Assembly: GCA_947494335.1 (NCBI GenBank)
Contig: CANLUT010000008.1
Location: 1 to 47,841 of the forward strand
DNA length: 47,841 nt
Reading direction: 5' to 3'
Origin: Oligoflexales bacterium
GTDB lineage: Bacteria > Bdellovibrionota_B > Oligoflexia > Oligoflexales > RGVZ01
The translations under genes and the position numbers were made by a program. Within the stretch, counting starts at the first letter, position 1. Each line of letters opens with the position of its first letter. Shown in pieces: positions 1-47,841 of the stretch. The notes below the pieces were generated by a model. The model made no database searches. It saw nothing but the letters and a program-made list of their open reading frames with translations, and was not told the origin of the DNA.

Positions 1-284
1 ATGACCAAAAGTTTTGGTTCATCTAGAAGGTTCGCAAATTGCGAAAATAGATTGGTAGGCTGAAGCATGTTCTGACGGACTATGCCGTTTTGAGTAACTA
101 AATCAGGATTATATTGAACTAACCCCTTCAGGTCTTTTAGGCATTTGCCCCTCTCCAGACAACGCCCAGCCGCCGCAGAGCCTGTTGTTTGAACTTTGAC
201 CGAATTCATTAAGACGCCACAGCCGGCTAAAATGCCAGCAATAGCGAGCGATAGAATTCTTACATAAAAATTACTTATCATCAT
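1..284 (-). CDS. Lipoprotein of unknown function (3' end outside window)
   Basis: The reading frame opens at 284 on the minus strand (two adjacent ATGs, 284 and 281) and is open to the window edge, giving 94 codons. The N-terminus is a lipoprotein signal peptide: a short hydrophobic stretch (ILSLAIAGILAGC) ending in the lipobox L-A-G-C, with the lipidated Cys near residue 22. The mature part seen is polar, has two further Cys in a C-x5-C arrangement (RCLERGKC), and matches no family I recognise. The ribosome site is weak (AGGTTGG). It is divergent from fni across a 400-nt gap. The call of a lipoprotein is firm; any function is unknown. Confidence 0.7.
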   Translation of the reverse strand, partial: MMISNFYVRILSLAIAGILAGCGVLMNSVKVQTTGSAAAGRCLERGKCLKDLKGLVQYNPDLVTQNGIVRQNMLQPTNLFSQFANLLDEPKLLV

Positions 285-683
285 AACTTGACCAACCTAT
301 TTAAGTAGTTCTCGGTCCATTTAGAGGAAGACTTTAGTTGGCGAATAGCTAGTTTTAGCCGGCCAAATAAAATCAATTATTTCATATATTTATGGCTCTC
401 TGAGGATTTGCTAGATATCGAAATCTTGGTGCAGAGCTCACATTTAAATCTCATCGAGTTTGCACCGGCTAGCTCCCCCCACCCCAAGAAAAAAACTCCT
501 TTCGGTCCGGGAGGTTTTGATGGACGATCTGCCGAGCGGCTAAGTGAGAATTTTCTAGAGATTGAGCTAGGATTCTCGTCTCAGGTTTTTGTTTGGGATT
601 ATCCCCTGGGACGTGTTAGATCGAGCAACAGGTCGAATCTTATTTCGGCCGGCTTTTAACCAACGGAGCCGGAACAACTCACA
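285..683. other. Intergenic region between divergent lipoprotein and fni
   Basis: About 400 nt separate the divergent lipoprotein and fni. It has an A+T-rich first half and a C-run near 476-486. I see no tRNA-like fold, no strong promoter pair and no convincing small gene. An 83-codon TTG-initiated frame at 408-659 has no ribosome site and no recognisable protein features. The region presumably holds the two divergent promoters. Confidence 0.4.
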
Positions 684-29852: not shown

Positions 29853-30539
29853 TTGAACGCCAGTCCAGCCATCATCCAACTAAAAGACGTCAAGAAAAGC
29901 TATAAGCTTGGGGAAACCGATGTACCGGCTCTGAAGGGGATCAATATTGAATTAAAACGTGGCGAATTTACGGCCGTCGTCGGAGCCAGTGGTAGTGGAA
30001 AAAGTACATTACTTAATATCGTCGGATGTATCGATGATCCAGATTCTGGAAGCGTCCTGGTCGACGGAGTTGAAGTGACAAAACTGGATGATGACTCAAA
30101 AAGCGCTCTCCGCAATCGCAAAATCGGCTTTATCTTTCAATCGTTTAACCTCGTTCCAGTTCTAAATGTTTATGAAAACGTTGAACTGCCTCTACTTATC
30201 AACCCCGACATTCCTCGCTCTGAGCACCAGGACCGCGTCAGTCAAGCTCTCAAGGATGTTGCGATCGATCACCTCGCCAAAAACCTCCCCGATCAATTAT
30301 CAGGTGGACAAAGACAACGGGTGGCTATTGCACGCGCTTTAGCAGGAAGTCCGGCGCTAGTCTTAGCAGATGAACCAACAGCAAACTTAGATAGTGTGAA
30401 CTCTCACCGAATCATCGATTTGATGCTGGAACTAAACGCCAAGCGTGGTGTTACGTTTCTGTTCTCCACCCACGATGAAAAACTCATGGCGCGCGTATCG
30501 CGCCATATTCAGATTGCCGATGGACTGATTAAGGCATGA
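29853..30539 (+). CDS. ABC transporter ATP-binding protein (LolD/MacB type)
   Basis: 228-aa cytoplasmic ATPase. TTG start with GGGAG 9 nt upstream. Motifs: Walker A GASGSGKSTL, a Q-loop in IFQSFNLVPVLNVYENVELP that is typical of the LolD/MacB/FtsE branch, signature LSGGQRQRVAIARAL, Walker B LVLADEPTANLD, and H-loop STHD. It pairs with the FtsX-like permease whose ATG overlaps its stop (ATGA), and with the second permease at 32728. This branch moves lipoproteins, peptides or other substrates by mechanotransmission rather than through a channel. The LolA-like protein in the operon favours a lipoprotein or lipid cargo. Confidence 0.92.
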   Translation: MNASPAIIQLKDVKKSYKLGETDVPALKGINIELKRGEFTAVVGASGSGKSTLLNIVGCIDDPDSGSVLVDGVEVTKLDDDSKSALRNRKIGFIFQSFNLVPVLNVYENVELPLLINPDIPRSEHQDRVSQALKDVAIDHLAKNLPDQLSGGQRQRVAIARALAGSPALVLADEPTANLDSVNSHRIIDLMLELNAKRGVTFLFSTHDEKLMARVSRHIQIADGLIKA

Positions 30540-31909
30540 GTCGACTTTTTGACAAAAATCTTGCGACACTTGCTTGGAGAAACCTTCGGCGGAATACGCG
30601 GCGAAATTTAGCTACCGGCTTAGCCATTGCTGCCGGATTTACGGCATTTATGTTGGCCGCTGGATACGCATACCGCGTCCAAAGGGTTCTTTCGTCTTAT
30701 ACGGTTTACGCCCTGCACGTAGGTCACATCGGGATCTACAAGAAGGGCGCCCTTGAGATGTTTAGCATCAAGCCCAAAGACTACGCCATGTCGGCAGACG
30801 ATCAGAAGATTGTCGATGACGTTCTAAAGGACATGGACAATATCGAAATGTCAGGCCGCTACCTGTCCGGACAAGGACTTATCGGTAATGGATGCAAAAC
30901 CTTTCCATTTATGGCAAGCGGCGTAGATCTCACTATTGAAGACAAAGTGATGAACCACCGCACGCTTAAACGCTGGAACGAGCATTTATACAAGCATCGC
31001 ACTGGGCAGTCGCTATGGGAATTCCCCGACTCATTTGGCGCAGTCTCTATCTCTGCAGGATTAGCGCAACTACTAGGCAAAACTAAAGTTCACAGTGAGC
31101 TCGGCGAGGCCAAGCCTGTGATGATTACTGACTGCACCGCACCAGATGCCAGAGCACTGTTCGGTGCTGATGCTAACGTTCAATTTGCCGCTGGCTCGTG
31201 GGACGGCACATTAAGTGCACTTGACGGCGAGATTGTTGGGCGTTTTACCACGGGCCTTCAGGAAACGAACAACACCGCGGTGACGATGTCATTAGCCCAT
31301 CTGCAAAAACTCTTGAACACTGAGAGTATTGGCAACATGAGTGTATGGCTCAAGGAACCGTTACTTCTTGATTTGACCATCACCAACCTGCGTTCCAAAC
31401 TGCAAAAAGCTGCTCCGCATCTGGAGGCCTTACCCTGGCGCGATGAGCGGCTAAGCCCCTATTACACTGGGACGATGCAGTTCATCTTTGTCATGGTTTC
31501 ATTCATTGGATGCGTTCTAGCGGTGGTCATCATCCTTAGTATTTTCAATTCAGCGACCATGACTGTAATTGAGCGCAGCCAGGAAGTCGGCATGTTCCGA
31601 AGCATTGGCTACAACAGCAAAACCATGCGCAAGATTTTCCTCATGGAAGGCTTCTTCCTAACCGGGATTTCTCTGGCCTGCGGAATCGTATTAGGTCTTT
31701 TGGCCATGTTTTTAGTCAATAGGCTACACATCACTCTTGAGCCACCCGGTGTATCGGGAGGCATTCAGTTGATATTATCTCCAAACGCGCTGATTATCCT
31801 TGTCGGTTCCGCCATCGTGAGCTTGCTTGGCGTCGGTAGCACGTGGATTGCAGTGACCAGCGTCGTTCGTCAGAATATTGCAAAACTTGTCAGTGGCGCT
31901 CACAGGTAA
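30536..31909 (+). CDS. ABC permease, FtsX/LolC-like (first of two)
   Basis: 457-aa protein. It has one N-terminal membrane segment after a basic WRNLRRNTRRNLATG motif, a large periplasmic domain (about 55-315), and three C-terminal membrane segments (FIFVMVSFIGCVLAVVIIL, then GISLACGIVLGLLAMFL, then LIILVGSAIVSLLGVGS). The pre-TM segment MTVIERSQEVGMFRSIGY matches the FtsX-domain signature of LolC/E and MacB. It overlaps the ATPase gene by 4 nt. It is paralogous to the permease at 32728; the two may form a heterodimer like LolC/LolE. Inner membrane. Confidence 0.9.
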   Translation: MSRLFDKNLATLAWRNLRRNTRRNLATGLAIAAGFTAFMLAAGYAYRVQRVLSSYTVYALHVGHIGIYKKGALEMFSIKPKDYAMSADDQKIVDDVLKDMDNIEMSGRYLSGQGLIGNGCKTFPFMASGVDLTIEDKVMNHRTLKRWNEHLYKHRTGQSLWEFPDSFGAVSISAGLAQLLGKTKVHSELGEAKPVMITDCTAPDARALFGADANVQFAAGSWDGTLSALDGEIVGRFTTGLQETNNTAVTMSLAHLQKLLNTESIGNMSVWLKEPLLLDLTITNLRSKLQKAAPHLEALPWRDERLSPYYTGTMQFIFVMVSFIGCVLAVVIILSIFNSATMTVIERSQEVGMFRSIGYNSKTMRKIFLMEGFFLTGISLACGIVLGLLAMFLVNRLHITLEPPGVSGGIQLILSPNALIILVGSAIVSLLGVGSTWIAVTSVVRQNIAKLVSGAHR

Positions 31910-31937
31910 ACGCCACCTCAACATAGGAGACTTAGTT

Positions 31938-32714
31938 ATGAAATTAAACGCAACATTCATCAGCAGCTTCATTCTGGCGTGCGCCATTAGCACCCAACTT
32001 TCTGCAGCACCAGCGCAAGCGCAGGCATCAGAACCAACACCAGAAGACCTATTAAAGGATAGTGACCGCGCACGCGGATCGGCCGCGGTGGCTGATGGCA
32101 TTTCTTGGGAAGTCGCTGTTGACTCCAATGATGGATCTACAAAGAGCTCTGTCACCTATGACTTAAAAGTCAAAGCCAATGACGCGCTCGCCGAAGCCAC
32201 AGCTCCTGCACGTAATAAGGGCGAAATGATGCTATTTAACGATCGTAACATCTGGTTTTTCAAACCAGGCATGAAAAAGCCACTTGCTATTTCTCCACGT
32301 CAAAAGCTCATGGGTCAAGCAGCTAACGGCGACATCGCATCGACCAACTACGCGCGCGACTATGAAGGAAAGATTGTCGCCACGGAAAAAGTAGACGGCC
32401 AAGACGCCTGGAAGATGGAACTTAAGGCAAAGGCGAAAAACGTAACTTATGACCAAATTCGTTACTGGGTTAGCAAAAAAGACAAAGTCGGAATTAAGGC
32501 CGAATTTTTGACCGTAAGTGGTGATATCTTTAAACGCGCGTCATTTGAATACAAGAACAAGATCGACGTAGGTGGCAAGCAAACACCGTTCGTCAGCAAA
32601 ATGACGATTATTGATGCAAAAAACGAAAAGCAAACGACGACACTCAATTATAAAAGCCCACGTCCCGCTAAGCATGCAGACGCCGTGTTTAACGTAAATA
32701 ACCTCGTTCGCTGA
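31938..32714 (+). CDS. Outer-membrane lipoprotein-sorting protein (LolA-like fold)
   Basis: 258-aa exported protein. ATG 31938 has AGGAG 8 nt upstream; a longer frame from 31878 would run back into the permease gene. Signal peptide ends near AQA. The mature part matches the outer-membrane lipoprotein-sorting family (PF17131; LolA-like half-barrel): DLLKDSDRARG at the start, GEMMLFNDRNIWFFKPGMKKP, SNYAxDYEGK-type ASTNYARDYEGKIVA, and a C-terminal fold ending AVFNVNNL. It probably accepts lipid or lipoprotein from the ABC permeases and carries it through the periplasm. It sits between the two permease genes. Confidence 0.88.
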   Translation: MKLNATFISSFILACAISTQLSAAPAQAQASEPTPEDLLKDSDRARGSAAVADGISWEVAVDSNDGSTKSSVTYDLKVKANDALAEATAPARNKGEMMLFNDRNIWFFKPGMKKPLAISPRQKLMGQAANGDIASTNYARDYEGKIVATEKVDGQDAWKMELKAKAKNVTYDQIRYWVSKKDKVGIKAEFLTVSGDIFKRASFEYKNKIDVGGKQTPFVSKMTIIDAKNEKQTTTLNYKSPRPAKHADAVFNVNNLVR

Positions 32715-32727
32715 TCGGAGTCGCAGC

Positions 32728-34062
32728 TTGTTAAGCACTGCAAAAAAACGAATGGCAAAAATCGGCTGGCGGAACGTGACGCGCAACTGGCGTCACAGCT
32801 TAGCGAGCAGTCTGGCAATTCTTGCAGGCTTTACAGCTGTGTCATTGTTCGATGGGTTTTTGACGGAACTCGCCCGAGTCACCGAAGAGGGCTACTCTGT
32901 TAGGGGCATGCAGGGGCACATTGTTATTCAGCGTAAAGATGCCCAGTATAAACTGGTGGAAGACAGCTTCGCATACTCCATGACTAAGCAGGAGCAGGAT
33001 GTCGTAGAAGAGCTGCTGAAAGCAGATCCTGATTTTGACCTGCGTGTAAGATTTCTTGAGGTCAAAGGGATGTTGGCCAATGGCATCAATAACGCAATAT
33101 TTATCGGAGCAGCGGTCGACGTAGACGATGGGCGCAGGATGCGAGAGCCCACTTGGGCTTGGAATACTGTTGCTGGTAAGCCTCTTCATTTGGTCGACGC
33201 TGACAACTCCGTTTTGATTGGTACGGCTTTGGGCAAGATGCTTGACTGCGAAGCAAGTGTGGACATCATCAACATCACGAAACGAACTGGCGGATACATC
33301 CCAGCTGAACGCCCATTCAAATGTGAGCGGAATTCATTGCAGTTAAGTGCCACGACAGAGGCAGCCCAGGTTAACGCTCTGGATCTAACGGTGGCAGGAA
33401 TTGTGGACGGCGGGTTTCGTGAGCAGGACAAGCACTGGATTATTATCTCGCTCCCGGCAGCTCAGAAACTCCTCGATACCGACAAAATCACGACGATATC
33501 GGTTCGGCTCAAAAACGAGCGCGCGATACCGGCGTTTATCGCGCGGCTGCGCGAGCAAACTAAAGCCAAGGGTCTCGATCTCGATATCATGCGCTGGCAG
33601 GATCATCAGGTGGGTGCATTCATGCGTGGCAGTATGCAGATTCTGAACTCGTTTAGAAATCTGTTCATGGTGATTGTGGTCTTGATTTGCGTCCTATCGG
33701 TCTCTAACACCATGATGAAATCAGTCACTGAGCGTATCAGAGAGATCGGCAGCCTAAGAAGCTTTGGCTTTAAGCGCGAGGATATCGCAGCCATGTTTAC
33801 CTTTGAGGGTCTATTCCTAGCCCTTCTCAGCTGCGTGGCAGGTCTCGTGGTCACCATTTTGCTGTCCTTTGCCATCAACAACAGCGGCATCACGTACAAA
33901 GCGGGCTTACTATCCGCCCCCATTTATCTCATGGTCGCCTTCAGCCCACTGGTCTGGTTGATGAATACCATTTGGCTCACAGCTTTGGCTGCCGGCACCG
34001 CCTGGCTCGCTTCACGCAAAGCCTCTCGCATGGTCATCGCCGACGCCATGCGCCACGTTTAA
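32728..34062 (+). CDS. ABC permease, FtsX/LolE-like (second of two)
   Basis: 444-aa protein; TTG start with GGAG 7 nt upstream. Same layout as the first permease: IGWRNVTRNWRHSLASSLAI at the start (N-terminal membrane segment), a periplasmic domain, three C-terminal membrane segments (FRNLFMVIVVLICVLSVSN, GLFLALLSCVAGLVVTILL, WLTALAAGTAWLA) and the FtsX signature SVTERIREIGSLRSFGF. With 29853 and 30536 it would make an ATPase plus two unlike permeases, the LolCDE composition. It ends at 34062, directly at the repeat cluster. Confidence 0.9.
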   Translation: MLSTAKKRMAKIGWRNVTRNWRHSLASSLAILAGFTAVSLFDGFLTELARVTEEGYSVRGMQGHIVIQRKDAQYKLVEDSFAYSMTKQEQDVVEELLKADPDFDLRVRFLEVKGMLANGINNAIFIGAAVDVDDGRRMREPTWAWNTVAGKPLHLVDADNSVLIGTALGKMLDCEASVDIINITKRTGGYIPAERPFKCERNSLQLSATTEAAQVNALDLTVAGIVDGGFREQDKHWIIISLPAAQKLLDTDKITTISVRLKNERAIPAFIARLREQTKAKGLDLDIMRWQDHQVGAFMRGSMQILNSFRNLFMVIVVLICVLSVSNTMMKSVTERIREIGSLRSFGFKREDIAAMFTFEGLFLALLSCVAGLVVTILLSFAINNSGITYKAGLLSAPIYLMVAFSPLVWLMNTIWLTALAAGTAWLASRKASRMVIADAMRHV

Positions 34063-34563: not shown

Positions 34564-34684
34564 GGCCAACAGTACTCCATACATTCTTGTAGTAGTGAAT
34601 ACAAAATTTTTAAATTAGGCTGGGTGATTTTTAGCGAGATCTGGTATGGTAGCTGATAACTACACCTACCCGATGGAGTTTCAT

Positions 34685-35149
34685 ATGATCAAAACGTTGC
34701 TAAGTTTGGCGCTGATATCAGTCACGTGCACAACAAGCTGTACAAAATGCTCGAGTAAAAGTGGAGGAGATGGTGAGGCCAAGGTTGCGACCGGACAAGT
34801 TGCCGGTACTCCTGTTATTGATACGTCTGACTTAAAAATAGAAACGCTGAAGCCAGGTTCAGGTGCTGTCGCTCAAAACGGCAAGAAAGTCACCGTCCAC
34901 TATGTTGGCAAACTTGAGAATGGCACCGAGTTTGACTCAAGCGAGAAGCGCAAGACGCCTTTCACGTTTGTGCTTGGGGCAGGTCAAGTTATCGTTGGCT
35001 GGGACAAAGGAGTTGAAGGTATGAAAGCTGGCGAGCGCCGACGTTTAAAAATACCATCGGCCCTCGGCTACGGAAGCCAAGGCGTGGGTCAAACGATTCC
35101 GCCGAATTCTAATCTAGTATTTGAAGTTGAATTACTTAACGTCGAATGA
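34685..35149 (+). CDS. FKBP-type peptidyl-prolyl isomerase, lipoprotein
   Basis: 154-aa protein. ATG 34685 has GGAG 6 nt upstream; the frame opening at 34646 is in a poor context. Signal peptide with Cys at VTC or TSC as the lipidation site (TTSC fits best). A short Gly/Ser linker leads to one FKBP domain of about 100 residues: VTVHYVGKLENGTEFDSS, PFTFVLGAGQVIVGWDKGV, GMKAGERRRLKIPSALGYG, IPPNSNLVFEVELL. All the usual active-site aromatic and Asp positions are present. It catalyses cis-trans isomerisation of X-Pro bonds and aids folding in the periplasm. Followed by a strong terminator at 35185. Confidence 0.93.
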   Translation: MIKTLLSLALISVTCTTSCTKCSSKSGGDGEAKVATGQVAGTPVIDTSDLKIETLKPGSGAVAQNGKKVTVHYVGKLENGTEFDSSEKRKTPFTFVLGAGQVIVGWDKGVEGMKAGERRRLKIPSALGYGSQGVGQTIPPNSNLVFEVELLNVE

Positions 35150-35580: not shown

Positions 35581-38493
35581 ATGCGTGGCACTAAACTAAA
35601 TTTTAACAAGCTTGTCCGGCGACTGCTGGTCGTGTCTTGCGCTTTTTTAACGGGATCAACGACGATCTTTTCTGAAGGCGCGACCGAACAAGGTGCCTCT
35701 GAAAAAATAAATTCGAGCAAAGTTTATTATGTGACGTGGCAAATTAATCGAGATGTTGGTCCTTTCCTGCGTCAGATCAAGACAAGGATAACAAGCGTTC
35801 CAGCGCCACATAACGACGTTAAGCTATACGATGGACGTCAATGGGATGAATTCGTAGATGTATTCTTGACTAAGAAAGATTCTTCCTCCACGCAGCCGTT
35901 TCCTGTGATGATTCCGCTTCCTGCCGCTTGCTTTGACCGGAATCTTTCAGCAGACAAAAAGGATGCTTGTTTAAAAGCCCCAGCATCATTCAGTGATGGA
36001 TTTGTTGAACTGGAATTGCAAGAAGTTCCCTCGTTTAAAAGTCTAGCCGATATCGTCAATTCCAACGGTGTACCGGCGACGGATGCAAGTCACCGCTTTT
36101 ATAATCAAGATCGTTGGCCAAACATCATTAAAAACTTGAACCCGAAGCTAGACGCATCGGGGATGATTCGTCCAGGCACGGTGTTGATTTTTCCAAAAGT
36201 TGTTAGCTTATCTCAATCGTCAAGTGCGATGGAGGTTCCGGCCACGGTCGATGCAGAAACGTCGGGCTCTGAAAATACTGCATCAAACATTACTAGCATG
36301 CGCCCGGACGACGCAGCAAATGTGATTTCTGATCAGCCGAGTCCTAGTCTAGCAGCATCCGAGCCGCCATTATCTCAACAATCATCCCAGCAGAATCTTG
36401 GATCCTTTGGCTCAAAATCAAAAATTTATTTCACTACGATTTCGTTAGACCGAAAGGCTGGACCTTACTTAAAACAAATTATCGCCAAGATTGGTGATGT
36501 GCCATCTCCTTATAATAGTACTGATCTCTATGATGGGCGTACATGGGAAGGCATGGTCGATGCTTTACTTACGAAGCAGGACTCATCAACAAAAAAACCG
36601 ATTGATGTTATGGTTCCGCTCCCGGCCGGATGCTTTGCGCTTCGTTCTTCAACACCTAAAAAAGATGCGTGCCTAAAAAATCCTACAAACTTTGCTTCCG
36701 GCGCTTTGACGCTTGGTCTTCATACGGTCGGTGATCGTGCGAATTTAGATACAGTACTCGCCGCGAATGGTGTGCCGGCGTCTTCAAAAGAGTTGAGTTT
36801 CTACAACCGTGCTCGTTGGGCGTTGGTTGTTCAAAACTTCAACCCAGGCAGGTCCAACTGGTCGTCGATAGGCGCTGGTGAAGCGATCGTTCTCCCAAAA
36901 ATTATTACAGTTGGGGAGGCTATGACGGCTTCTGATACTACGTCAACTGATGTTTTGGGGTCATCAGTGGATCAGGGCGCAATCGCTGGCAGTAGCGGCA
37001 ACCCTGATGTTGTTGCGGTTGATTCCACAGAAACAAAACCCGCCGCAGGCTATTATTCAGAAGTAGAGGCTGCGGCAGCAGAAAATGCTGCTCGAGTGGC
37101 TAGAATTGCAGATCTTGCAAGAGCCCAAAAAGAAGCCGCGGAAGCTGAGGCACTCAAGGCAAAATATGAGGCAGATTACGCCGAAGCTATTCGTCGTAAA
37201 AACGAAGCCTCGGCTACAATTGCTGGGACTCTCAAACCTACAAGCGGGGCAACGGAAGCGACGGAAGCATTGAAGGATGCAAAAGCAGCAGAAGCTGCTC
37301 AAGCCGAGGAGGCATCTAAAGCCGCGGATTTGAGCGCCGCAGCGAAAGCTGCTGAAGCTGCAGCTGCTGCAGAAGCGGCAAAGGCCGCGGAGGCAGCCCG
37401 TGCTGCCGAAGCTGCGAAGGCTGCCGAAGCTGAGCGTATCGCGCGCGCGGCAGCAAAAGCAAAAGCCGAAGAAGCGGCTCGCATTGCCCAGGCTGCAAAA
37501 GCTGCTGAAGCAGCAAAAGCAGCCGAAGCGGCTCGAGCTTTGCAGGCTGCAGAAGCCGCCCGCGCGGCAGAGGCTGCGAAAGCTGCAAAGGCTAAGAAAG
37601 CCGCAGAGGCACTTGCAGCGGCCAAAGCAGCTGAAGCCCTCTCTAACAAAGTCGCGATTGAAGCAGAACGCGGTGCTAAAGCAGCCCAGGCGGCTAAATC
37701 TGCGGAGGAAGCCGTAACTGCCCTTGCAGCTGAGGCCGCAGAACGTGCTAAGCGCTTAGCGGATGCTAAGCGGTCCATGTCTGGTAACGCCGGCGACTGG
37801 GAGCGACTACCGGGAAAAAGCATTAATTTTTCACTTGCAAGAAACGTGTTGAGCTCAGCCAAGTCACCGATGCTCAAAAAGCAGACGGCTACGACTTTGA
37901 TGTATACGCAGGCCGATGATGAGACAATGGAGTTTTTTGGCGGTGTATCTCATTCGTCATTTGTTAAAGGTCAGTCTGAGTCAGAGCTTCTGACCAGGAC
38001 TGATGATCCATTGGAATATTTCAGGTTTTCTAGCTTGGATTTCGGCGCAAGGTTTTTCTTCCAGGGACTCGCGTCAAATATGGAGCTTTATGCCGGTCTT
38101 TACGCGCGTGTCGCACTTATGGATATTCGTTATTACATTTCGAATCAATCAGACGGCGTAGCGTATCTGTTAGAAGACCATACCGATCATAATGTTGGAC
38201 TTGGAATTACTGGTGGCTTAACGGTAACTAAAAAGTCTATGCGCTACCGATTAAGTGCGGTCAAAGATCTCTATGAATTCGTGGATCAATCCCTTCTCAT
38301 CGACCGAGGTAATAATCGGTTAACGATCAGCTATTACACCCCTCGCCCAGAGGGAAGAAAGCAATCACAGCATAACTATGACTTTTTCTTTGAGTCAGAA
38401 ACCGTAGATATTCATTTGATTGAGAAGGAAGCGAATTTAAATGCCCAAATGAAGCGATTCTCTGTGGGATTAGGACTTGGAGTTGCTTGGTAA
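35581..38493 (+). CDS. Exported LysM-like / coiled-coil / barrel-like envelope protein
   Basis: 970-aa protein with a basic N-terminus and signal peptide (about 1-34). Two 160-aa repeats follow (about 48-206 and 281-440). Each has YDGR.W, VPLPA.CF, a Cys pair with C-x12-C spacing (117/130, 351/364), and a closing segment reminiscent of LysM (SLADIVNSNGVP, then NLNP, PGTVLIFPK). Residues 493-731 are an Ala/Glu/Lys coiled coil (AEAAKAAEAA type) that could span the periplasm, as in TolA. Residues 732-970 have amphipathic strands with aromatic ends, closing VGLGLGVAW, like a small outer-membrane barrel. ATG 35581 is the first start after an in-frame TAA; no good ribosome site. It precedes the giant Ig-repeat lipoprotein by 160 nt. 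The function is inferred as an envelope anchor. Confidence 0.75.
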   Translation: MRGTKLNFNKLVRRLLVVSCAFLTGSTTIFSEGATEQGASEKINSSKVYYVTWQINRDVGPFLRQIKTRITSVPAPHNDVKLYDGRQWDEFVDVFLTKKDSSSTQPFPVMIPLPAACFDRNLSADKKDACLKAPASFSDGFVELELQEVPSFKSLADIVNSNGVPATDASHRFYNQDRWPNIIKNLNPKLDASGMIRPGTVLIFPKVVSLSQSSSAMEVPATVDAETSGSENTASNITSMRPDDAANVISDQPSPSLAASEPPLSQQSSQQNLGSFGSKSKIYFTTISLDRKAGPYLKQIIAKIGDVPSPYNSTDLYDGRTWEGMVDALLTKQDSSTKKPIDVMVPLPAGCFALRSSTPKKDACLKNPTNFASGALTLGLHTVGDRANLDTVLAANGVPASSKELSFYNRARWALVVQNFNPGRSNWSSIGAGEAIVLPKIITVGEAMTASDTTSTDVLGSSVDQGAIAGSSGNPDVVAVDSTETKPAAGYYSEVEAAAAENAARVARIADLARAQKEAAEAEALKAKYEADYAEAIRRKNEASATIAGTLKPTSGATEATEALKDAKAAEAAQAEEASKAADLSAAAKAAEAAAAAEAAKAAEAARAAEAAKAAEAERIARAAAKAKAEEAARIAQAAKAAEAAKAAEAARALQAAEAARAAEAAKAAKAKKAAEALAAAKAAEALSNKVAIEAERGAKAAQAAKSAEEAVTALAAEAAERAKRLADAKRSMSGNAGDWERLPGKSINFSLARNVLSSAKSPMLKKQTATTLMYTQADDETMEFFGGVSHSSFVKGQSESELLTRTDDPLEYFRFSSLDFGARFFFQGLASNMELYAGLYARVALMDIRYYISNQSDGVAYLLEDHTDHNVGLGITGGLTVTKKSMRYRLSAVKDLYEFVDQSLLIDRGNNRLTISYYTPRPEGRKQSQHNYDFFFESETVDIHLIEKEANLNAQMKRFSVGLGLGVAW

Positions 38494-38653: not shown

Positions 38654-41600
38654 ATGTTTTTAAAAGGTTTGACAAATTGGCGCTCAAAAGTGGCACCTGG
38701 TGCTGCTTGGGCGTTGCTTTGCGTTTTACCCCTCTCAAGCTGTGACTCGAAATTCTCTGGATCCGTTGCCAACAGTAACAAAAGAAATAACCCACTTGCC
38801 GGTGTGGTCAGTGTGGAAGGCTCCATTAGCTTTGAGGGAACCTCTTCGAGCGCTCTTCGTGCCAGCGAAGGCTGTAGCGATGTAGCGACCGTTTATATGA
38901 CACTTTTTGCTCGATGGGACGGTAGTAAGTTTGCTGAGGTCCAACAACGGTTGACATCGGTCAAGGCCGACCCTGATAACACCTACTTCTTTGGAAACCT
39001 GGATGATCTCGGTATCAACTTAGACTCTAAAACAGACGTTTGGAAAGTTGAAGCTGAGCGTTGCGGCGAATACTTTTCGCGCATCATTACCGGCAGAAGG
39101 GCGCAAGATCTATCAAGTGCCACTACGGCTATCGACTTCGCTGTTGACCGTACGCTCCTTACAGCATCACTCGACGATGCGGTCAATAAAAAATTGCCAG
39201 AACTTGATGCTCTTTATGTCCTTGCGATGAAATCACCAACAAGCGAAACAATTGTTGAACATATCAAAGCAGATCGACGCGGTGAAAAAGCCTATGACAC
39301 GGTATTTGGTGCTGTAGTTGTTGAGCTTGAAAAAATAGAACCAAGAATCCTAAGCCAGGCCGTACCTACAAAAATTTCAGCGACCCACAGGACTAAGTTT
39401 GAAGTCCAGGCAGTTTACTACTCCACAAAATATGCTGTTGATTACCAGTGGCGTCTCAACGGTGTTGATGTCGGAACCGAGGCAATTTACTACTGGCGTC
39501 CCCGAGGTAACCAAACAGGCCCCCACAAGCTTGAACTCACGGTTGGGATAGTCAACCGCGCTGCGGCTCTCAGTCTGCAGGGTAAAACTAAACTTGCAGA
39601 CCCGGAATTCACCTCAAAATACTTTTCCTGGGATCTTGTCGTTCAAGATGCAGCTCTTGACCCGAAAACACCAGTTATTTCTGGACTAGCATTAGCCAAT
39701 CAGGCAGCAGACGGTTTCATCAATAACGCGGACTCCTCAAGTTCGTCACCACTAGCATCATTAAGTGCTTCGAATTTTGATAAAGCTGAATATGCATTAG
39801 TTTCGCCGTCAACCGGCTGCGATGAAAGTATAAGCTACCCGCTCAATGCGATTCCTGCCATTAGTTCGCTAGCAGCCAACGGGAACTACAAACTCTGTGC
39901 CATGTTGAGTTTAACTGACGGTGGGCAGGCCTTTGCCAAAACTTCATTGCTTATTCGCGACATCGAGATTCCCCTAGTCACTTATTCGACCGTTTTCCCG
40001 GCAGCTGGTTCGCCTGAAAAGAAGCCAACGCTCATGGGAACAGTTTCGAAGCCATCCATGGTGACCCTCTATTACGACGCAAGCTGCACTAGTAGTAAAT
40101 CTGAAGCCTGGACTAATACAGTATTCGCATCACCTGGTATTCGGGCGCGAGATGATATTCCGAGCAACGTCACTACAAAAATTTATGCGCAAGCAATTGA
40201 TCCAGCAGGCAACCCATCTGAATGTAAAGAACTCGTGTCATATGTTCATGACGATATTCTGCCGAGTGTCTCAGAAGTTAGCTCTACAGCGAATAGTGGT
40301 GGCTATAAAGCTGGAGCGAATATACCAATCACCATAAAGTTCTCTGAAATTGTCAAAGTCACTGGTGCCCCACAATTGCGTCTCGCAACGGGGGGGGCCC
40401 AGACTGTTTTGTCTTACCGGAGTGGTGGTGACACTGACACACTGACTTTTGACTACACGGTGTCGGCCGGCGAGCAAGCTAATTTGCTGGATTATGACGG
40501 TATATCGGCTCTAAGTTTGAATGGCGGAACTATCAAGGATTTGGTGGGTAATTCAGCGAACCTTCAGTTACCGATTCCGGGCAGTGTCGGCAGTCTTTCA
40601 AATAGTAAACAGTTTATTATCGACACAGAGTCTCCCAACTTTAGTTATTCATCCATAGTCCCTGCGGCAGCCTCAAGTTCACGTACGCCTACAATAACAA
40701 TAAGTCTATCAGAGCCAGCAACAGTCACACTGTATAGTAATTCATCTTGCTCTGTTGAGATCTCAGAGGCTGCGAACCTACAAACGGGGCCAGGTCAAAC
40801 ATTAACGACGAATAACTTAAATCAGAACAGTGTAACCACGATTTTTGCTCAAGCAGTAGATGCTGTAGGAAACAAGTCATCCTGCGGAAATGTAATAGTT
40901 TACACTCATGACGATGTGCTGCCATCAGTCGTGTCATTTGGACGTGCTGCGGGTCAGGCTGCTTTAACCAATTCCCTACCGGTTAATTTCAGTCTGGTTT
41001 TTAACGAACCGATCAATGTGGCTAGTTTCACGGTAGATGACCTAAATAACGCTGGTACAGCAACAGGGGTCACATGGACGATCACGGATTCAGGCGATCA
41101 TAGATCATTTACAATTGGCGCTTCTGCTGCAAATAATGGGACGATCATACCGCAGCTTTCGGCAGGCGCAATCACTGACCCGGCGGCAAACACTAATAGC
41201 TCTGAGTCGACAGCCAGTAACTCCGTTGGATACTCTGTGGCTCCATTGACTGTTACCATCAATCAGGCCGCATCCCAAATCGACCCAATCAATGCCCTTC
41301 CCATACTGTTCATGGTTGAATTCTCCGAAGAGCTGGATCCGGCCAGTTTCACGGCGGCAGATATCACTCAGAATGGTACTGCTAGTGGAATTACTTGGGA
41401 AGTTGCAACCTCTGACAATAAATCCTATGTCCTATCGGCGTCTGCGATTGGCGTTGAGGGTACTCTCCTGCCCGTAATCCTTCAAAATGCTGTTAGCGAC
41501 AAGTTTGGTAATAAAAATGCAAACTCCACATCAACTGACAATCTTGTTCGCTACCAAATCTCTCCCCCGGTTATTTCCCTTTCATCTGTTTCGCCTGGCA

Positions 41601-44600
41601 ATCCATCCCCGACATTAATGCCGACAATTTTGGGAACCACCTCTGTTGAGTCATCATTGACTCTTTATTTGGACAGTTCCTGTTTAGATTCTGCGTCTGA
41701 AACAGCAAATAATATGATATTTGCTAGTCCAGGTATTACGTTGAATCGTGCTGTTCCCGCCAATACTCAATCAGTAATTTACGCAAAAGCCCTTGATCTT
41801 GCCGGTAACTTAAGCGGCTGTGAGCCTTTAGTGACATATCTTCACGATGCAATTAATCCCTCGGTCATTGCTGTTTCATCAACAAAAGCCGATGGATTCT
41901 ACATGGCCGGTGTCGAAATTCCGGTCACAATCAAGTTCTCAGAGATTGTTAATGTGGTTGGTACCCCTCAGCTCACCTTGGAGACAGGCTCCATGTTAGC
42001 GGTTGTGGACTACACGAGCGGATCAGGCACTGATACATTGACGTTTAAATACACCGTTGCACCAGGACAAACTTCTGAAGACCTGGATTACATTTTTGTA
42101 GATCCTTTGAGCCTTAATAGCGGATCGATTAAAGATCTGGCTGGGAATAATGCGTCTCTTGCTCTCCCTGCTCCAGGGGCATCAGGAAGCATCAGTGCGA
42201 ATAAGAACATTGTCGTTGACACAACGACGCCGACAATATCCTTCTTGATGACGACTCCGGCATCGCCAGGTAATACAAGAACGCCGCAAGTGACATTTGA
42301 TGTGTCTGAGGACATGTCAAAAGTAGAATTATTCAAAGACAACACTTGCGGAGCGTTAATTTCGGGTTCGAGCACAGCAGTGCCAGGTGGGAATTCGGTC
42401 ACAACGAATACGTTGGCACTGAATATTGCAACCGTGATCTTTGCTCGAGGGCAGGATCTCGCTGGTAATATTTCAGCCTGTACCCGATTGACTACTTATA
42501 TTCATGACGGCGTTGTGCCAACGATTGTATCTGTTTCAACCAATGCCCCTGATGGTACTTATGGTCTAGGCCAAACGATCCCAGTAATCGTCACTTTCAC
42601 GGAACCAGTTCTGGTGACCGGCACTCCACAACTGACCCTATTTACACTTCCTAACAATGCCGTTGTAAATTACACATCCGGATCCAGTGGAAACCAGCTG
42701 ACATTCAATTACACGTTGGGCCAGGGGCAGACCTCATCTGACCTTGAGTATTTGTCAACTCTCGCGCTTTCGCTTAACGGTGGAACGATCAAAGACTTTG
42801 CAGCCAACAATGCGGTTTTGACCCTGCCAGGGCCAGGTGAAGAAACGAGCTTAGGTGGATCGTCATCCATCTCGATTGATACAACGCCGGCAACCGTCTC
42901 GTATCAATCCACGTCACCGGCATCTCCTTCTACAAACGTTGCGCCGAATGTGAATATGAGTTTGTCTGAGGCAGCTACCGTAACCCTATATAGCAATGAT
43001 CAATGTACGACTCAGATCTCAGCGGGAGTTAGTTTGCCCTCGGGTGGTGGTCGGTCAATCAGAACCTATAGTTTGTCTCAGAATACGGCAACGTCGATAT
43101 TTGCCAAGGCTTTGGACTCGGTTGGCAATACGTCCGGTTGTCAGAGTTTGGTTGTCTATACACATGACAATACACCGCCTGCAGTGTCGTCATTTGCCAG
43201 ATCGTCGATTCAGCCCTCTTTAACGAATTCATTGCCGATCGACTTCACGTTGACGTTTAGCGAGCCGATTAACCCTGCGACGTTTACGGCGTCTGATATT
43301 GTGAACCTAGGGACTTCTTCAGGAATTGCCTGGGATATCCTTGATCTCGGAGATCACAAGACGTTCACGTTGTCGGCAAGCAGCGCATCGAACGGAACCC
43401 TTTTTCCAAGACTGTCGAGTGCCGCGGTTTCTGATTACGCTAACAACGCCAACTCCGGTGTCAGTGACTCCCAGAATAATGTGGATTATCTTGTCGCCGC
43501 TCAATCGGTAACGATCAACCAAGACGACGGACAGGCAGATCCAGTCAGATTCCTTCCCATACGTTTTAAGGTCACATTTTCTGAAGCGGTTGGCTCTTCG
43601 AGTTTTACGACAGCTGACATTATTCAAAATGGATCAGCCAGTGGGATCAGCTGGTCGTTGTCCACATCAGATAATATAGTTTGGATCCTCTCGGCCAACT
43701 CAGTCAATGTGGCTGGTACGTTGATCCCAACGATTGCGGCCAACACTGTTGTCGATAAGTATGGCAATGCCAACGCAGCGTCCACAGCGACCGATAATAC
43801 GATTACATATGATATGACCCCTCCGACCCTGTCGTATTCATCAGTGCAGCCAGCTAACCCCTCTCAGTCAGGTAATCCGACTATTTTGGGTACCGTTTCA
43901 GAGACAGCCAATGTTGCTCTGTATTTCGATAGCGGGTGTTCGACAGCCAAGTCAAGCAGCCTGCCAAACACTGTGTTCTCAAGTCCTGGAATTCAGGTGA
44001 CTTCGGCTGTGACCCAAGACGACTACACACCCATCTACGGTAAAGCGACGGACCTTGCCGGCAATGAGTCAGCTTGTACGAGTCTTCTCAGCTATTTCCA
44101 AGACGTGACGGTACCATCGGTAGTTTCGGTGACTTCGACGCTAGCTAATGGCAGCTACAGGGTTGGCCAGGTTGTTCCAGTAACCGTGAATTTCTCTGAG
44201 CCTGTATTTTTAACTGGCAGTATTCAGCTTGCGTTAAAAACTGGCTTCACAAATACCGTCTTAAGTAATCCAATCGGGTCAGGCACTAATGCTCTTACCT
44301 TCACATATATCGTGGCTTCTGGAGATACATCCGCACGACTTGATTACGCATCAGGCTCGAGCCTGCAGCTGGTTTCCGGTACTTTAAAGGATCTCGTGGG
44401 TAACAACGCCGTTTTGACACTGCCTGCCCCCGGGGCTAGCGGAAGTCTTGGCAATACAAAGAATTTGATTATCGACACTGAGAATCCAGTGATTGCTATG
44501 TCCGGCACGACACCTGTCTCCCCAGGCAACAGTCAAAATCCACAGATCCAGTACACAATAACGGAGTCTGTCCCGGTTATTCGATTCTTTAATGACAATG

Positions 44601-47600
44601 GTTGTTCAGTAGGTATTTCGGGTCAGTCTACTGCTACCATGGGTGCTAACACATTCACCGCATTCACAATGACACCTAATACAACCTTGTCCGTGTACGT
44701 CCTGGCAACAGACGCAGCTGGTAATTCATCTGGTTGCAATAAAATTGGCGAGTATGCTCACGACGGCGGACCGCCAATGGTGTCTTCGGTGACTTCAACC
44801 ACCCCGAACGGTCCGTATGGCCCTGGTCGTTTGATACCGATCACTGTAACTTTCACCGAACCCGTATATGTAACTGGGACGCCTGTAATTTCCTTGGCGA
44901 CGGGTGTACCCAGTTCAGTCGCTTCTTATGTCTCCGGTTCGGGTAGTACGACTCTGACGTTTAACTATACAGTCGTCAATGGCGAGACGTCGGCAAAATT
45001 AGACTACGCGTCGACAACAGCTTTGAATTTGAATGGCGGCGCTATCCGCGATCTATCATTGAATGACGCTGTATTGACTTTACCTGGTATCGGCGGAGCA
45101 AACAGCCTCGGTGGTCAAAAATCAATTATTATTGATACTACAATTCCGACAGTGGCTTACACATCTATTGCACCAAGCGCCACCTCAACTTCTCAGAATC
45201 CAACTCTAACCCTGACCGTTTCAGAGCCATCAACTGTGACTCTGTTTAGTGATTCTAGTTGTTCTAACGCTATTGCTGCAGCGAAAGCACTAGTCCCGGG
45301 TCTTAATCAAACCATAACAACGAATACGCTCCTAGTTAATAGCTCTACAACAATTTTTGCACAATCCGTAGACGCGGCTAATAACGTTTCTGCATGTAGT
45401 TCAATGGTGGTTTATATCCATGACAACGTGGCCCCTGTTATTAACTCGTTTGCTCGTAGCACTGCCCAGGCTGCTGCCACGAACTCATTGGCGATTAATT
45501 TCTCGATAACATTTAATGAAGCCCTTGACGCTAGTACGTTTACCGCAAGCGATATAGAAAATGCTGGATCGGCTACTGGTGTTACTTGGGTTGTGACAGA
45601 TTCCGGTGACCAACGAACATTTAATATCGCAGCGACCGTAGCGTCAAACGGCACTTTACAGCCCAAACTTCTTAGTGGATCAGTATCCGATCGAGCAGGT
45701 ACATTCAATGCGGGTGTTTCCACCTCCTCAAACAACGTAAACTATATTGTTGCGCCGCTTACGGTCACCCTCGAGCAGGCTAACGCTCAAGCAGATCCAA
45801 TCAACGTCGCGCCTATCCGGTACAGAGTTGTGTTCTCGGATGCCGTAGCCCCTGGAAGCTTTACAACGGCAGATATTTCACAGGTTGGAACTGCCAGCTC
45901 TGTGACTTGGGCTCTCAGTTCCACTGATAATATCACATGGGATTTAACAGCCACATCCGTGGGCTCGAGCGGAACAGTAATCCCTTCGATTCCGGCGAAC
46001 TCCGTGCAGGATAATTTCGGGAACTTGAATGGCGCATCATTCTCGTTAGATGCATCCGTGGTTTATGACGTGGTTGCTCCAACTATAGCATTCTCGTCAC
46101 TATCACCGGCAAACCCAGGAATGAGTTTAAAACCGACAATCTTAGGCTCGACATCCGAGCCTGCCACTCTTGCTCTATACTTTGACAGTTCATGTACGAC
46201 ATCGAGATCTGATTTTGCACCGAACACCATTTTCGCGAGTCCTGGTATCACCCTGACGGCGAATGTAAACACTAATACAACGACGACCGTCTATGGTAAA
46301 GCTGTCGATCCCGCAGGTAACTATTCGCTTTGTACCGAACTTGTTACGTATATTCACGACGGCATGCCGCCAGCGGTTACAAGTGTTTCTTCGACCCTCG
46401 ATAATGGCTATTACAAGGCTGGGCAAGTAATCCCGATCCAACTGAGCTTCTCAAAAGTTGTTTATGTTACGGGAACACCGACCCTTACGCTTGAGACCGG
46501 CACAACCGATGCGGTGGTGGCGTACTCGGCTGGTTCTGGAACAAATACGCTAACATTTAATTATACGGTTTTTGCTGGCGATAATTCGGCTAGGCTCAAT
46601 TATCAGTCGACTACTGCCTTGAGTTTGGGGACAGCTACGATTAGGGACGCCGTTGGAAACCCAGCGACGCTGACTTTGCCGGATCTGGTCTCTGCGGTAA
46701 GTCTCTCCGGCAATAAAAATATTGTTGTTGATACAACACCCACAACGATTTCTTTCAACTCTATTGCACCCGTATCGCCCGGGGCATCGCTTACCCCGTC
46801 AGTTACGCTTTCTTTATCAGAGCAAGTCAGTAATGTGCAGTTATATTTGACAGCTGGTTGCATCTCGCCAATATCAATTGCGATGCCAGGTGTAGCGGGT
46901 GCGAATGTACTGACTACGAATACCCTTACAGCTAACGCGACATCATCTATTTACGCGCAAACAACCGACCTTGCGGGTAATAGTTCATCCTGCTCTCTAA
47001 TGACTAGCTACCTTCATGATGGAGTGGCTCCAACCGTCTCGTCGGTAACGTCCAGTGCTGCAAATGGTACTTACGGAGTTGGCCAAACGATTCCGATTGT
47101 TGTCTCCCTGTCCGAGAATGTATTTGTTGTAGGAACGCCAAGAATTTTGATGAGTCCTGGAAGTGGTTCAAGTTATGCGACCTACGCATCCGGATCTGGA
47201 AGCGGCACTTTGACATTCAATTACGTGGTGAGTTCGGGCGACAATGCGGCTGATCTCGATTATGCGACTTCCGGTGCGTTTGATGTTAATGGCGGGTCAA
47301 TCAAAGACGTATCAGGTAACACTGCTGCTTTGAGTCTGCCTACTTTGGGTGGTGCCAACAGTCTTGCGGGACAAAAAGCGATAGTCATTGACTCTACGGC
47401 GCCAATCCTTAATTTCACGTCCATTGCACCCGTATCGCCGGGGGTTTCTCGTTCACCAGCGGTTACTTTAACCGTATCTGAGTCGGCTAATGTGACACTG
47501 TACCGAGAAAATACATGTACAGGTGAGATTTCAGCTTCAACGTCACTCGTCACGGGGCCTTTCCAAACGATTACAACATTTGCACTCGACGGCAATGCTG

Positions 47601-47841
47601 TCACGACCATATTTGGCAAGGGTGTGGATCCTTACGGGAACGCCTCAAGCTGTACCAGCCTTGTGGTTTATACCCATGACAATATTGCGCCAGCGGTTAG
47701 TTCGTTTGTGAGAGCTGCGGGTCAGCCTTCCCTCACAAACTCTCTACCAATGAACTTCACAGTGACCTTTAATGAGCCAGTTAATAGTGCATCGTTTACT
47801 GCAAGTGATATCGGTAACAACGGCACAGCCACTGGCGTCAC
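38654..47841 (+). CDS. Giant lipoprotein with Ig-like repeat array (3' end outside window)
   Basis: The frame is open from ATG 38654 (first start after an in-frame TAA at 38648) to the window edge, at least 3062 codons. The signal peptide ends in lipobox L-S-S-C (Cys30), with Asp at +2. About 440 N-terminal residues are unique, with a PKD-like DYQWRLNGVDVG segment. From codon 441 there are 25 Ig-like modules. A (124 aa) has IPITVxFSEPV, TLTFxYTV, LDY, LNGG.IKD and IDT. B/B' (96/98 aa) has a Cys pair and a closing YxHD. C (107 aa) has TNSLPIxF and FTxSDI. D (107 aa) has FTxADI, NGTASGI and SDN. They resemble bacterial Ig-like domains of large adhesins. It is probably a surface or periplasmic adhesin/fibre; ligand unknown. 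No inner stop was noted at the points checked. Confidence 0.88.
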   Translation, partial: MFLKGLTNWRSKVAPGAAWALLCVLPLSSCDSKFSGSVANSNKRNNPLAGVVSVEGSISFEGTSSSALRASEGCSDVATVYMTLFARWDGSKFAEVQQRLTSVKADPDNTYFFGNLDDLGINLDSKTDVWKVEAERCGEYFSRIITGRRAQDLSSATTAIDFAVDRTLLTASLDDAVNKKLPELDALYVLAMKSPTSETIVEHIKADRRGEKAYDTVFGAVVVELEKIEPRILSQAVPTKISATHRTKFEVQAVYYSTKYAVDYQWRLNGVDVGTEAIYYWRPRGNQTGPHKLELTVGIVNRAAALSLQGKTKLADPEFTSKYFSWDLVVQDAALDPKTPVISGLALANQAADGFINNADSSSSSPLASLSASNFDKAEYALVSPSTGCDESISYPLNAIPAISSLAANGNYKLCAMLSLTDGGQAFAKTSLLIRDIEIPLVTYSTVFPAAGSPEKKPTLMGTVSKPSMVTLYYDASCTSSKSEAWTNTVFASPGIRARDDIPSNVTTKIYAQAIDPAGNPSECKELVSYVHDDILPSVSEVSSTANSGGYKAGANIPITIKFSEIVKVTGAPQLRLATGGAQTVLSYRSGGDTDTLTFDYTVSAGEQANLLDYDGISALSLNGGTIKDLVGNSANLQLPIPGSVGSLSNSKQFIIDTESPNFSYSSIVPAAASSSRTPTITISLSEPATVTLYSNSSCSVEISEAANLQTGPGQTLTTNNLNQNSVTTIFAQAVDAVGNKSSCGNVIVYTHDDVLPSVVSFGRAAGQAALTNSLPVNFSLVFNEPINVASFTVDDLNNAGTATGVTWTITDSGDHRSFTIGASAANNGTIIPQLSAGAITDPAANTNSSESTASNSVGYSVAPLTVTINQAASQIDPINALPILFMVEFSEELDPASFTAADITQNGTASGITWEVATSDNKSYVLSASAIGVEGTLLPVILQNAVSDKFGNKNANSTSTDNLVRYQISPPVISLSSVSPGNPSPTLMPTILGTTSVESSLTLYLDSSCLDSASETANNMIFASPGITLNRAVPANTQSVIYAKALDLAGNLSGCEPLVTYLHDAINPSVIAVSSTKADGFYMAGVEIPVTIKFSEIVNVVGTPQLTLETGSMLAVVDYTSGSGTDTLTFKYTVAPGQTSEDLDYIFVDPLSLNSGSIKDLAGNNASLALPAPGASGSISANKNIVVDTTTPTISFLMTTPASPGNTRTPQVTFDVSEDMSKVELFKDNTCGALISGSSTAVPGGNSVTTNTLALNIATVIFARGQDLAGNISACTRLTTYIHDGVVPTIVSVSTNAPDGTYGLGQTIPVIVTFTEPVLVTGTPQLTLFTLPNNAVVNYTSGSSGNQLTFNYTLGQGQTSSDLEYLSTLALSLNGGTIKDFAANNAVLTLPGPGEETSLGGSSSISIDTTPATVSYQSTSPASPSTNVAPNVNMSLSEAATVTLYSNDQCTTQISAGVSLPSGGGRSIRTYSLSQNTATSIFAKALDSVGNTSGCQSLVVYTHDNTPPAVSSFARSSIQPSLTNSLPIDFTLTFSEPINPATFTASDIVNLGTSSGIAWDILDLGDHKTFTLSASSASNGTLFPRLSSAAVSDYANNANSGVSDSQNNVDYLVAAQSVTINQDDGQADPVRFLPIRFKVTFSEAVGSSSFTTADIIQNGSASGISWSLSTSDNIVWILSANSVNVAGTLIPTIAANTVVDKYGNANAASTATDNTITYDMTPPTLSYSSVQPANPSQSGNPTILGTVSETANVALYFDSGCSTAKSSSLPNTVFSSPGIQVTSAVTQDDYTPIYGKATDLAGNESACTSLLSYFQDVTVPSVVSVTSTLANGSYRVGQVVPVTVNFSEPVFLTGSIQLALKTGFTNTVLSNPIGSGTNALTFTYIVASGDTSARLDYASGSSLQLVSGTLKDLVGNNAVLTLPAPGASGSLGNTKNLIIDTENPVIAMSGTTPVSPGNSQNPQIQYTITESVPVIRFFNDNGCSVGISGQSTATMGANTFTAFTMTPNTTLSVYVLATDAAGNSSGCNKIGEYAHDGGPPMVSSVTSTTPNGPYGPGRLIPITVTFTEPVYVTGTPVISLATGVPSSVASYVSGSGSTTLTFNYTVVNGETSAKLDYASTTALNLNGGAIRDLSLNDAVLTLPGIGGANSLGGQKSIIIDTTIPTVAYTSIAPSATSTSQNPTLTLTVSEPSTVTLFSDSSCSNAIAAAKALVPGLNQTITTNTLLVNSSTTIFAQSVDAANNVSACSSMVVYIHDNVAPVINSFARSTAQAAATNSLAINFSITFNEALDASTFTASDIENAGSATGVTWVVTDSGDQRTFNIAATVASNGTLQPKLLSGSVSDRAGTFNAGVSTSSNNVNYIVAPLTVTLEQANAQADPINVAPIRYRVVFSDAVAPGSFTTADISQVGTASSVTWALSSTDNITWDLTATSVGSSGTVIPSIPANSVQDNFGNLNGASFSLDASVVYDVVAPTIAFSSLSPANPGMSLKPTILGSTSEPATLALYFDSSCTTSRSDFAPNTIFASPGITLTANVNTNTTTTVYGKAVDPAGNYSLCTELVTYIHDGMPPAVTSVSSTLDNGYYKAGQVIPIQLSFSKVVYVTGTPTLTLETGTTDAVVAYSAGSGTNTLTFNYTVFAGDNSARLNYQSTTALSLGTATIRDAVGNPATLTLPDLVSAVSLSGNKNIVVDTTPTTISFNSIAPVSPGASLTPSVTLSLSEQVSNVQLYLTAGCISPISIAMPGVAGANVLTTNTLTANATSSIYAQTTDLAGNSSSCSLMTSYLHDGVAPTVSSVTSSAANGTYGVGQTIPIVVSLSENVFVVGTPRILMSPGSGSSYATYASGSGSGTLTFNYVVSSGDNAADLDYATSGAFDVNGGSIKDVSGNTAALSLPTLGGANSLAGQKAIVIDSTAPILNFTSIAPVSPGVSRSPAVTLTVSESANVTLYRENTCTGEISASTSLVTGPFQTITTFALDGNAVTTIFGKGVDPYGNASSCTSLVVYTHDNIAPAVSSFVRAAGQPSLTNSLPMNFTVTFNEPVNSASFTASDIGNNGTATGV
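39974..41569 (+). repeat. Ig superrepeat 1, short form (B'-A-B-C-D)
   Basis: 532 codons: B' 39974, A 40268, B 40640, C 40928, D 41249. It is exactly 220 codons (one A-B pair) shorter than the following units, so it has lost, or never gained, one A-B pair. Confidence 0.8.
41570..43825 (+). repeat. Ig superrepeat 2 (B'-A-B-A-B-C-D)
   Basis: Exactly 752 codons: B' 41570, A 41864, B 42236, A 42524, B 42896, C 43184, D 43505. Module lengths are 98, 124, 96, 124, 96, 107 and 107 codons. The next unit repeats these lengths. Confidence 0.85.
43826..46081 (+). repeat. Ig superrepeat 3 (B'-A-B-A-B-C-D)
   Basis: Again exactly 752 codons, with modules starting at 43826, 44120, 44492, 44780, 45152, 45440 and 45761. 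The sequence has diverged from unit 2 at the DNA level, but module order and lengths are the same. This B' is the only B-type module ending FQD instead of xHD. Confidence 0.85.
46082..47841 (+). repeat. Ig superrepeat 4, cut by window edge
   Basis: Modules B' 46082, A 46376, B 46748, A 47036, B 47408 and C 47696 follow the same order and lengths; the window ends inside C. If the pattern holds, the missing part is the rest of C and a D. Confidence 0.8.

Follow-up and report, generated by a model that had tools for sequence, protein, structure and literature searches.

The window analysed here is the entire contig C8 (47,841 nt) of an Oligoflexales genome (G000), and past its right edge extends a giant gene whose product carries Ig-like modules of four kinds in a seven-module unit of 752 residues, B-A-B-A-B-C-D. 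An ordered multi-domain unit repeated in register, with clades specific to each phase, is the arrangement of titin-like super-repeats, and this arrangement was found here. If, as we infer, the gene continues on contig C3, the reading frame in the window would be the N-terminal fifth of a giant lipoprotein that is probably longer than 14,000 residues, and a reading of the single contig concealed about four fifths of the gene. On C3 the array has a third level of order, in which alternating units are paired. This offers a bacterial, intron-free case of hierarchical array growth, from a domain pair to a seven-domain block and on to a fourteen-domain block.

The array in the window

A single frame is kept from the start of the giant gene to the contig end. 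The gene and the parts of its product are placed as follows.

38654-47839, + strand: 5' part of the giant lipoprotein gene, an open reading frame of 3062 codons with no stop before the contig end
38654-38743, + strand: signal peptide and lipobox LSSC, read from the translation by eye
38744-39970, + strand: non-array head of about 410 residues, before the first Ba module
39971-41566, + strand: first short block, 532 residues, with Ba 39971, A 40253, B 40634, C 40913 and D 41234 (module HMMs, phases by tree)
41567-43822, + strand: full block 1, 752 residues, with Ba 41567, Aa 41849, Bb 42230, Ab 42509, Bc 42890, C 43169 and D 43490 (HMMs and lags)
43823-46078, + strand: full block 2, 752 residues, with Ba 43823, Aa 44105, Bb 44486, Ab 44765, Bc 45146, C 45425 and D 45746 (HMMs)
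46079-47839, + strand: block 3, cut by the contig end, with Ba 46079, Aa 46361, Bb 46742, Ab 47021, Bc 47402 and C 47681 (partial) (HMMs)

The N-terminus has the sequence features of a bacterial lipoprotein, a signal peptide and a lipobox ending in cysteine (...LCVLPLSSC, residues 22-30). Cys 30 is the predicted site of lipidation, with Asp at +2. No Pfam match was found in the head that follows, and its residues 1-320 have no relative among the 42 other genomes of the order. The last 100 residues or so of the head are Ig-like, and their identity to modules of another giant, encoded on contig C6, is about 40%.

Is the array as regular as it looks? The sequence-only reading had proposed an arrangement B'-A-B-A-B-C-D of four module kinds, the B' starts lying at 39974, 41570, 43826 and 46082. 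The module HMMs give the same order, reading from 39971 as B-A-B-C-D / B-A-B-A-B-C-D / B-A-B-A-B-C-D / B-A-B-A-B-C(cut). They place the starts at about 39971, 41567, 43823 and 46079, one codon away, and the spacings come out as proposed at 1596, 2256 and 2256 nt. The first block had been described as short by one A-B pair, and the shortfall is exactly that, 220 residues or 660 nt; of the division of this pair into 372 and 288 nt the sum holds, while the A/B boundary lies a few residues away. Comparison of the product with itself gave lag peaks at 752, 1504, 532 and 220 residues, and the DNA of the reading frame gave peaks at 2256, 4512, 1596 and 660 nt. At lag 752, 891 of 1870 residues of the window array are identical, against a mean of 151 in shuffles (sd 11, max 194). 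The three complete units in the window have 752 residues each, with identical module lengths of 110, 105, 97, 127, 93, 127 and 91 residues. Within the window this bears out the claim of exactly 752 codons and constant module lengths. Over the whole array, however, the unit ranges from 751 to 755 residues, so the constancy is local to the window and the "strict register" claimed for the array is not kept.

How did such an array arise? The C and D modules are related to each other (about 35% identity), and the A modules among themselves and the B modules among themselves are likewise related. Modules of the same phase are closer than modules of different phases: the identity is 54% for Ba-Ba versus 39% for Ba-Bb and 42% for Ba-Bc, and 49% for C-C versus 35% for C-D. 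For the A modules the phase gap is small (56-57% in the same phase versus 52% in the other). The tree of B modules needs 5 changes to account for four phase groups versus a mean of 36.6 after shuffling, and the tree of A modules 6 changes for three phase groups versus 20.6, many forks of both trees being weak. As the modules cluster by phase, it was whole blocks that were copied. Thus the growth by multi-module blocks that had been proposed is supported, by these clades and by the pairing of units described below, while the route may have been the proposed unequal crossing-over or another kind of tandem duplication. To call the nested periodicity unusual, as the sequence-only reading did, is fair for bacteria, but in domain-repeat proteins the duplication of multi-domain blocks in mid-repeat is the common mode of growth (Bjorklund 2006, PMC1553488).

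Continuation on contig C3 and history of the array

Where does the gene go beyond the window? One 752-residue unit, used as query against the same genome, returned a row of matches on contig C3 that reaches the end of that contig. From this contig end to its stop the C3 frame counts 11,093 codons, with 12 full units followed by tandem RCC1-type propeller repeats and the stop. The array on C3 has the same orientation as the C8 part and a phase compatible with it. C8 breaks off after 55 residues of a unit, and on C3 the array resumes at residue 349; the gap would correspond to about 293 residues plus some number of whole units. No overlap between the two ends was found with exact words down to 20. 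This array is present at only 2 of the 16 contig ends, C8-right and C3-right, and since only these two carry it, in compatible orientation and phase, one gene across both contigs is the simplest reading. It would have at least about 14,450 codons.

It is improbable in our estimate that the C8 and C3 parts come from two distinct genes that share this type of array and are both interrupted where their contigs stop. Two such genes would explain why the ends do not overlap and would fit the slight difference in G+C between the parts (0.479 vs 0.515), and contig ends interrupt further giant genes of this genome too. On the other hand, the array is found at two ends only, which are turned towards each other with compatible orientation and phase, and the identity of the units drops outwards from the interior via units B01-B03 to units A3-A1. 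Then could the periodicity itself be an artefact of mis-joined or multiplied copies? Repeat arrays can be collapsed in assembly, and the contigs do terminate within the array. Assembly errors from tandem repeats are on record (PMC6868369). Still, we regard an artefact as hardly credible. Units of the window are identical at only about 50% of residues and 52-53% of bases, the frame stays open through 9.2 kb and 33 kb, and dN/dS indicates selection on separate copies. Copies that are only about half identical would not be mistaken for one another or multiplied by an assembler, which rules out multiplication for the window part. Collapsed copies could lie only in the unseen gap between C8 and C3.

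Contig C6 is also cut inside an Ig-type giant and was considered as a continuation of C8. It was rejected, since the C6 giant is built of different modules (lag 514), and the array-module HMMs matched none of them.

On C3 the successive units measure 752, 751, 752, 755, 751, 753, 751, 753, 751, 753, 751 and 754 residues, and a last unit is cut after 666; over both contigs 15 units are complete. In the C3 part the identity is 44.5% at lag 1504 versus 21% at lag 752. Part of this contrast arises because the alternation of 751 and 753 shifts lag 752 out of step, so identities based on alignment are the fair test. For aligned pairs among units B04-B12, units of the same parity share 62-92% of their residues and units of different parity 55-59%, ranges that do not overlap. 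The alternating lengths, 751 and 753, add up to 1504 residues, and in B04-B12 the alternating units form a superunit of this length with 14 modules. The closest pairs are in the interior (B09/B11 with 92% and B08/B10 with 85% amino acid identity), while the flanking units A1-B03 show 48-59%, and similarity declines towards both flanks. The parity of the superunit together with the interior position of the youngest copies indicates that the array grew by seven-module blocks first, and later from within by blocks of fourteen.

Is the exchange of blocks still going on? The closest copies, B09/B11, have only 82% DNA identity and already a dS of about 0.9. With most other unit pairs saturated, the block copying in the sequenced part is old, and no sign of recent or ongoing exchange was seen in that part. 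For the two youngest pairs dN/dS is about 0.05-0.10 (Nei-Gojobori; near saturation and hence approximate). Constancy of length since the copying is what purifying selection on Ig folds yields.

Relatives and known multi-domain arrays

The same A and B modules are found in two species of the genus. In G003 they form an array B-A-B-A-B-A-B-A-B-A-B in a protein of 2187 residues (G003:C68), and in G001 a shorter B/A array in a protein of 1983 residues (G001:C20). The B modules of both alternate between the Ba and Bb clades, in the manner of Ba-A-Bb-A, with a period of about 443-445 residues. Both proteins have a lipobox and a propeller towards the C-terminus, as the giant does. They differ in being only about 2000 residues long, in having neither the C-D pair in the array nor the third B phase, and in carrying a Kelch propeller, whereas here the period is 752 and the repeats are of the RCC1 type. 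In a second gene of G001, two Big_12-like domains precede B-A-B-A and a weak C-like domain follows (E 4e-5); a gene of this type is a possible source of the C-D pair.

In the class sample of 58 genomes only this genome spans the whole unit, with no full-unit match in any other. So far, then, the third B phase, the C-D pair within the array and the seven-module unit are confined to this genome. In a genome collection of about 85,000 species, scanned with two peptide patterns, partial matches turned up at five loci (Spirochaetes, Oligoflexia, Chloroflexota), with no seven-module unit among the matches listed; the genome studied here is possibly outside that collection, and the scan is no proof of absence. 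No relative was found in the viral collection.

Super-repeats of 7 and 11 domains are known from titin (PMC3859903). The 7- and 11-domain Ig/FnIII blocks of the titin A-band and the seven-module unit of nebulin resemble the present array in that an ordered multi-domain unit is repeated in one chain, and growth in mid-array by multi-domain blocks is already known from both proteins. However, these are eukaryotic, intracellular and exon-split, whereas here there is an uninterrupted bacterial lipoprotein gene with a further doubling to 14 domains. No sequence homology to the titin domains was found, a profile search of all PDB chains returning no homologue of known structure at E 0.01; the fold alone is in common. 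Short arrays of the same modules persist in sister species, and the origin of super-repeats like those of titin and nebulin can here be tested without exon shuffling. The case also allows one to ask whether selection fixes the super-repeat length or block copying merely yields it as a by-product.

Among bacterial proteins, MpAFP of M. primoryensis, yrIlm of Y. ruckeri and the giant adhesin of M. mulieris share the long Ig-like stalk, in some with a non-stalk end domain, and reach up to megadalton size (PMC8286594, PMC4083281, PMC6868369, PMC10619420). The giant adhesins described in the last three of these papers repeat a single domain kind, sometimes identically. Here, in contrast to bacterial fibrillar adhesins, there are four module kinds, a seven-domain unit and old diverged copies, with a predicted lipid anchor at the N-terminus and a putative RCC1 tip. 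The words "RCC1" and "propeller" are absent from the text of the fibrillar-adhesin paper PMC8286594. In the open-access literature, which leaves most subscription papers outside, no account was found of a bacterial super-repeat that has seven domains and has doubled further.

Fold, neighbourhood and a proposed fibre

The AlphaFold model of one unit, built on a 14-row alignment, is all beta with a mean pLDDT of 90.7 and a pTM of 0.42, a low value as expected if the domains are beads on a string. Big_5 matches lie above the Pfam cut-off, and Big_12 above it in the tail. By these matches and the all-beta model, the array has the tandem Ig-like domains that mark the stalks of fibrillar adhesins. 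A Foldseek search with the model placed titin I65-I70 and GhpA of Aureispira among the best of many Ig-like proteins, with scores of a generic fold. GhpA, the grappling hook (PDB 9fly, 9flu), is likewise a giant bacterial beta-sandwich protein, but with about 14% identity and a TM-score of 0.34 it is a generic Ig-like match. Two cysteines, spaced by about 45 residues, are invariant in all B modules of the aligned units, and no cysteine is conserved in the A, C or D modules of these units. The invariant pair makes one disulfide staple per B domain likely, and such staples would imply folding outside the cytoplasm.

The C-terminal tail on C3 contains about 13 RCC1 repeats by pattern and by Pfam (PF00415, E 7.7e-122, 13 stretches; PF25390, E 4.1e-212), beyond the threshold of the RCC1-repeat family, and then a last beta domain before the stop. 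It is assigned as a putative propeller from these sequence profiles, the fold predicted from the single sequence having a pLDDT of only 31.6, and its repeats are the candidate for a terminal adhesive domain. We know of no single role for bacterial RCC1 propellers.

Upstream of the giant gene lie the following genes.

29853-34062, + strand: Lol-like ABC genes, comprising a LolD-like ATPase (29853-30539), LolC/E-FtsX permeases (30536-31909 and 32728-34062) and a LolA_like protein (31878-32714)
34646-35149, + strand: FKBP prolyl isomerase
35581-38493, + strand: orphan exported protein of 970 residues, directly upstream of the giant gene

The Lol-like genes score below the equivalog cut-offs, and the LolA_like gene sits between the two permeases; the cluster may encode a lipoprotein exporter that has diverged, or else a MacB-like system of another sort. 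Its position and type suggest a possible role in handling the giant lipoprotein. The 970-residue protein has two similar segments of about 150 residues, a coiled-coil-like stretch rich in Ala, Lys and Glu that carries 18-bp DNA repeats, and a beta-rich C-terminus. It has no Pfam match and no relative in the 42 other genomes of the order. Since both this protein and head residues 1-320 are absent from those genomes, the locus is lineage-specific, and homology tells nothing about the function of either.

What, then, might the giant protein do? To judge from its sequence it is most likely a surface lipoprotein fibre. With some confidence, though well short of certainty, we favour a giant secreted fibre with a stepwise-grown array, in which a disulfide-stapled Ig stalk presents the propeller tip away from the cell as an adhesin. 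To the observed arrangement and history of the array this proposal would add lipidation, surface exposure, extension and binding. The N-terminal lipid would tether the protein to the cell. The stalk would consist of about 120 stiff Ig-like beta domains, the B domains among them stapled by disulfides, and at about 4 nm per domain it could extend to roughly half a micrometre. The tip would then be shown to a surface, a polymer or another cell. Growth would have started from an array of the (Ba-A-Bb-A) type common to the sister species, gone on by gain of a third B and the C-D pair, then by copying of the seven-domain block, and at last by copying of block pairs in the interior. Two known adhesin types were rejected for this protein. 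An RTX/LapA-type adhesin, which would carry RTX repeats and a type I secretion signal at the C-terminus and a retention domain at the N-terminus, does not agree with a C-terminus of RCC1 repeats, beta domain and stop and an N-terminus with a lipobox; an invasin or intimin would begin with an outer-membrane beta-barrel, not with a lipoprotein signal and a head that has no Pfam match.

The protein might instead be no adhesin at all but a structural fibre of the envelope, or else a scaffold shed into a matrix; its propeller would then serve to anchor it and not to bind a ligand. In E. coli, Asp at +2 of the lipobox favours retention in the inner membrane, and this residue counts against a surface position if the rule applies in the present host; the upstream Lol-like and prolyl isomerase genes would suit envelope assembly as well. 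Yet a stalk of about half a micrometre exceeds any periplasm by far, and the tip domain varies between the sister genes (RCC1 versus Kelch), as ligand-binding ends do. We hold this alternative to be unlikely, though one to be kept in mind. A different question is whether the spacing of 752 residues is itself the function, as a ruler that sets sites at fixed intervals of about 28 or 56 nm and whose length is kept by selection, as with titin super-repeats and the thick filament. It would account for unit lengths that vary by a few residues at most while identity falls to 48%, and for odd and even units that deviate by -1 and +1 and sum to 1504. But Ig-like domains resist indels in any case, and the same spacing arises from block copying alone; moreover, the first block is short by an A-B pair, the last one is truncated, and the sister species have a different period of 443 residues. 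A ruler thus seems rather doubtful to us. As a long shot only, one may imagine a bacterial molecular ruler of the titin type, whose alternating units, with different binding faces at intervals of about 28/56 nm, would arrange a polymer partner, or a sheath of several proteins, along the half micrometre or more of the fibre, the doubling to 14 domains having been selected for its spacing.

The assembly of this genome breaks mainly at giant paralogues. At least 7 of its 16 contig ends are cut in giant Ig-type or related lipoprotein genes (C1-left, C8-left, C5-right, C8-right, C3-right, C4-left and C6-right), and C1-left and C8-left (window 1-300, - strand) have near-identical N-terminal coding sequence up to the break. 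C5-left and C6-left (L106, L107) end in long polyglutamine-coding runs, apparently of one lipoprotein gene. Contig C1 holds another giant lipoprotein frame at about 1228334-1254000 (L090, L091, L113), of 8582 residues with a weak periodicity of about 1105-1110 residues. The truncated giants at C4-left (L105, 1566 residues) and C6-right (L092, 1805 residues) have block periods of 918 and 514 residues, which suggests that copying of multi-domain blocks is general in this genome. Elsewhere in the Oligoflexia, a reading frame of 12,914 residues (G058:C77, L114-L116) has scattered A- and C/D-like modules with no clear period, and a lipoprotein of 6734 residues from the same order (G016:C9, L093-L094) has a clean single-domain repeat of 102 residues.
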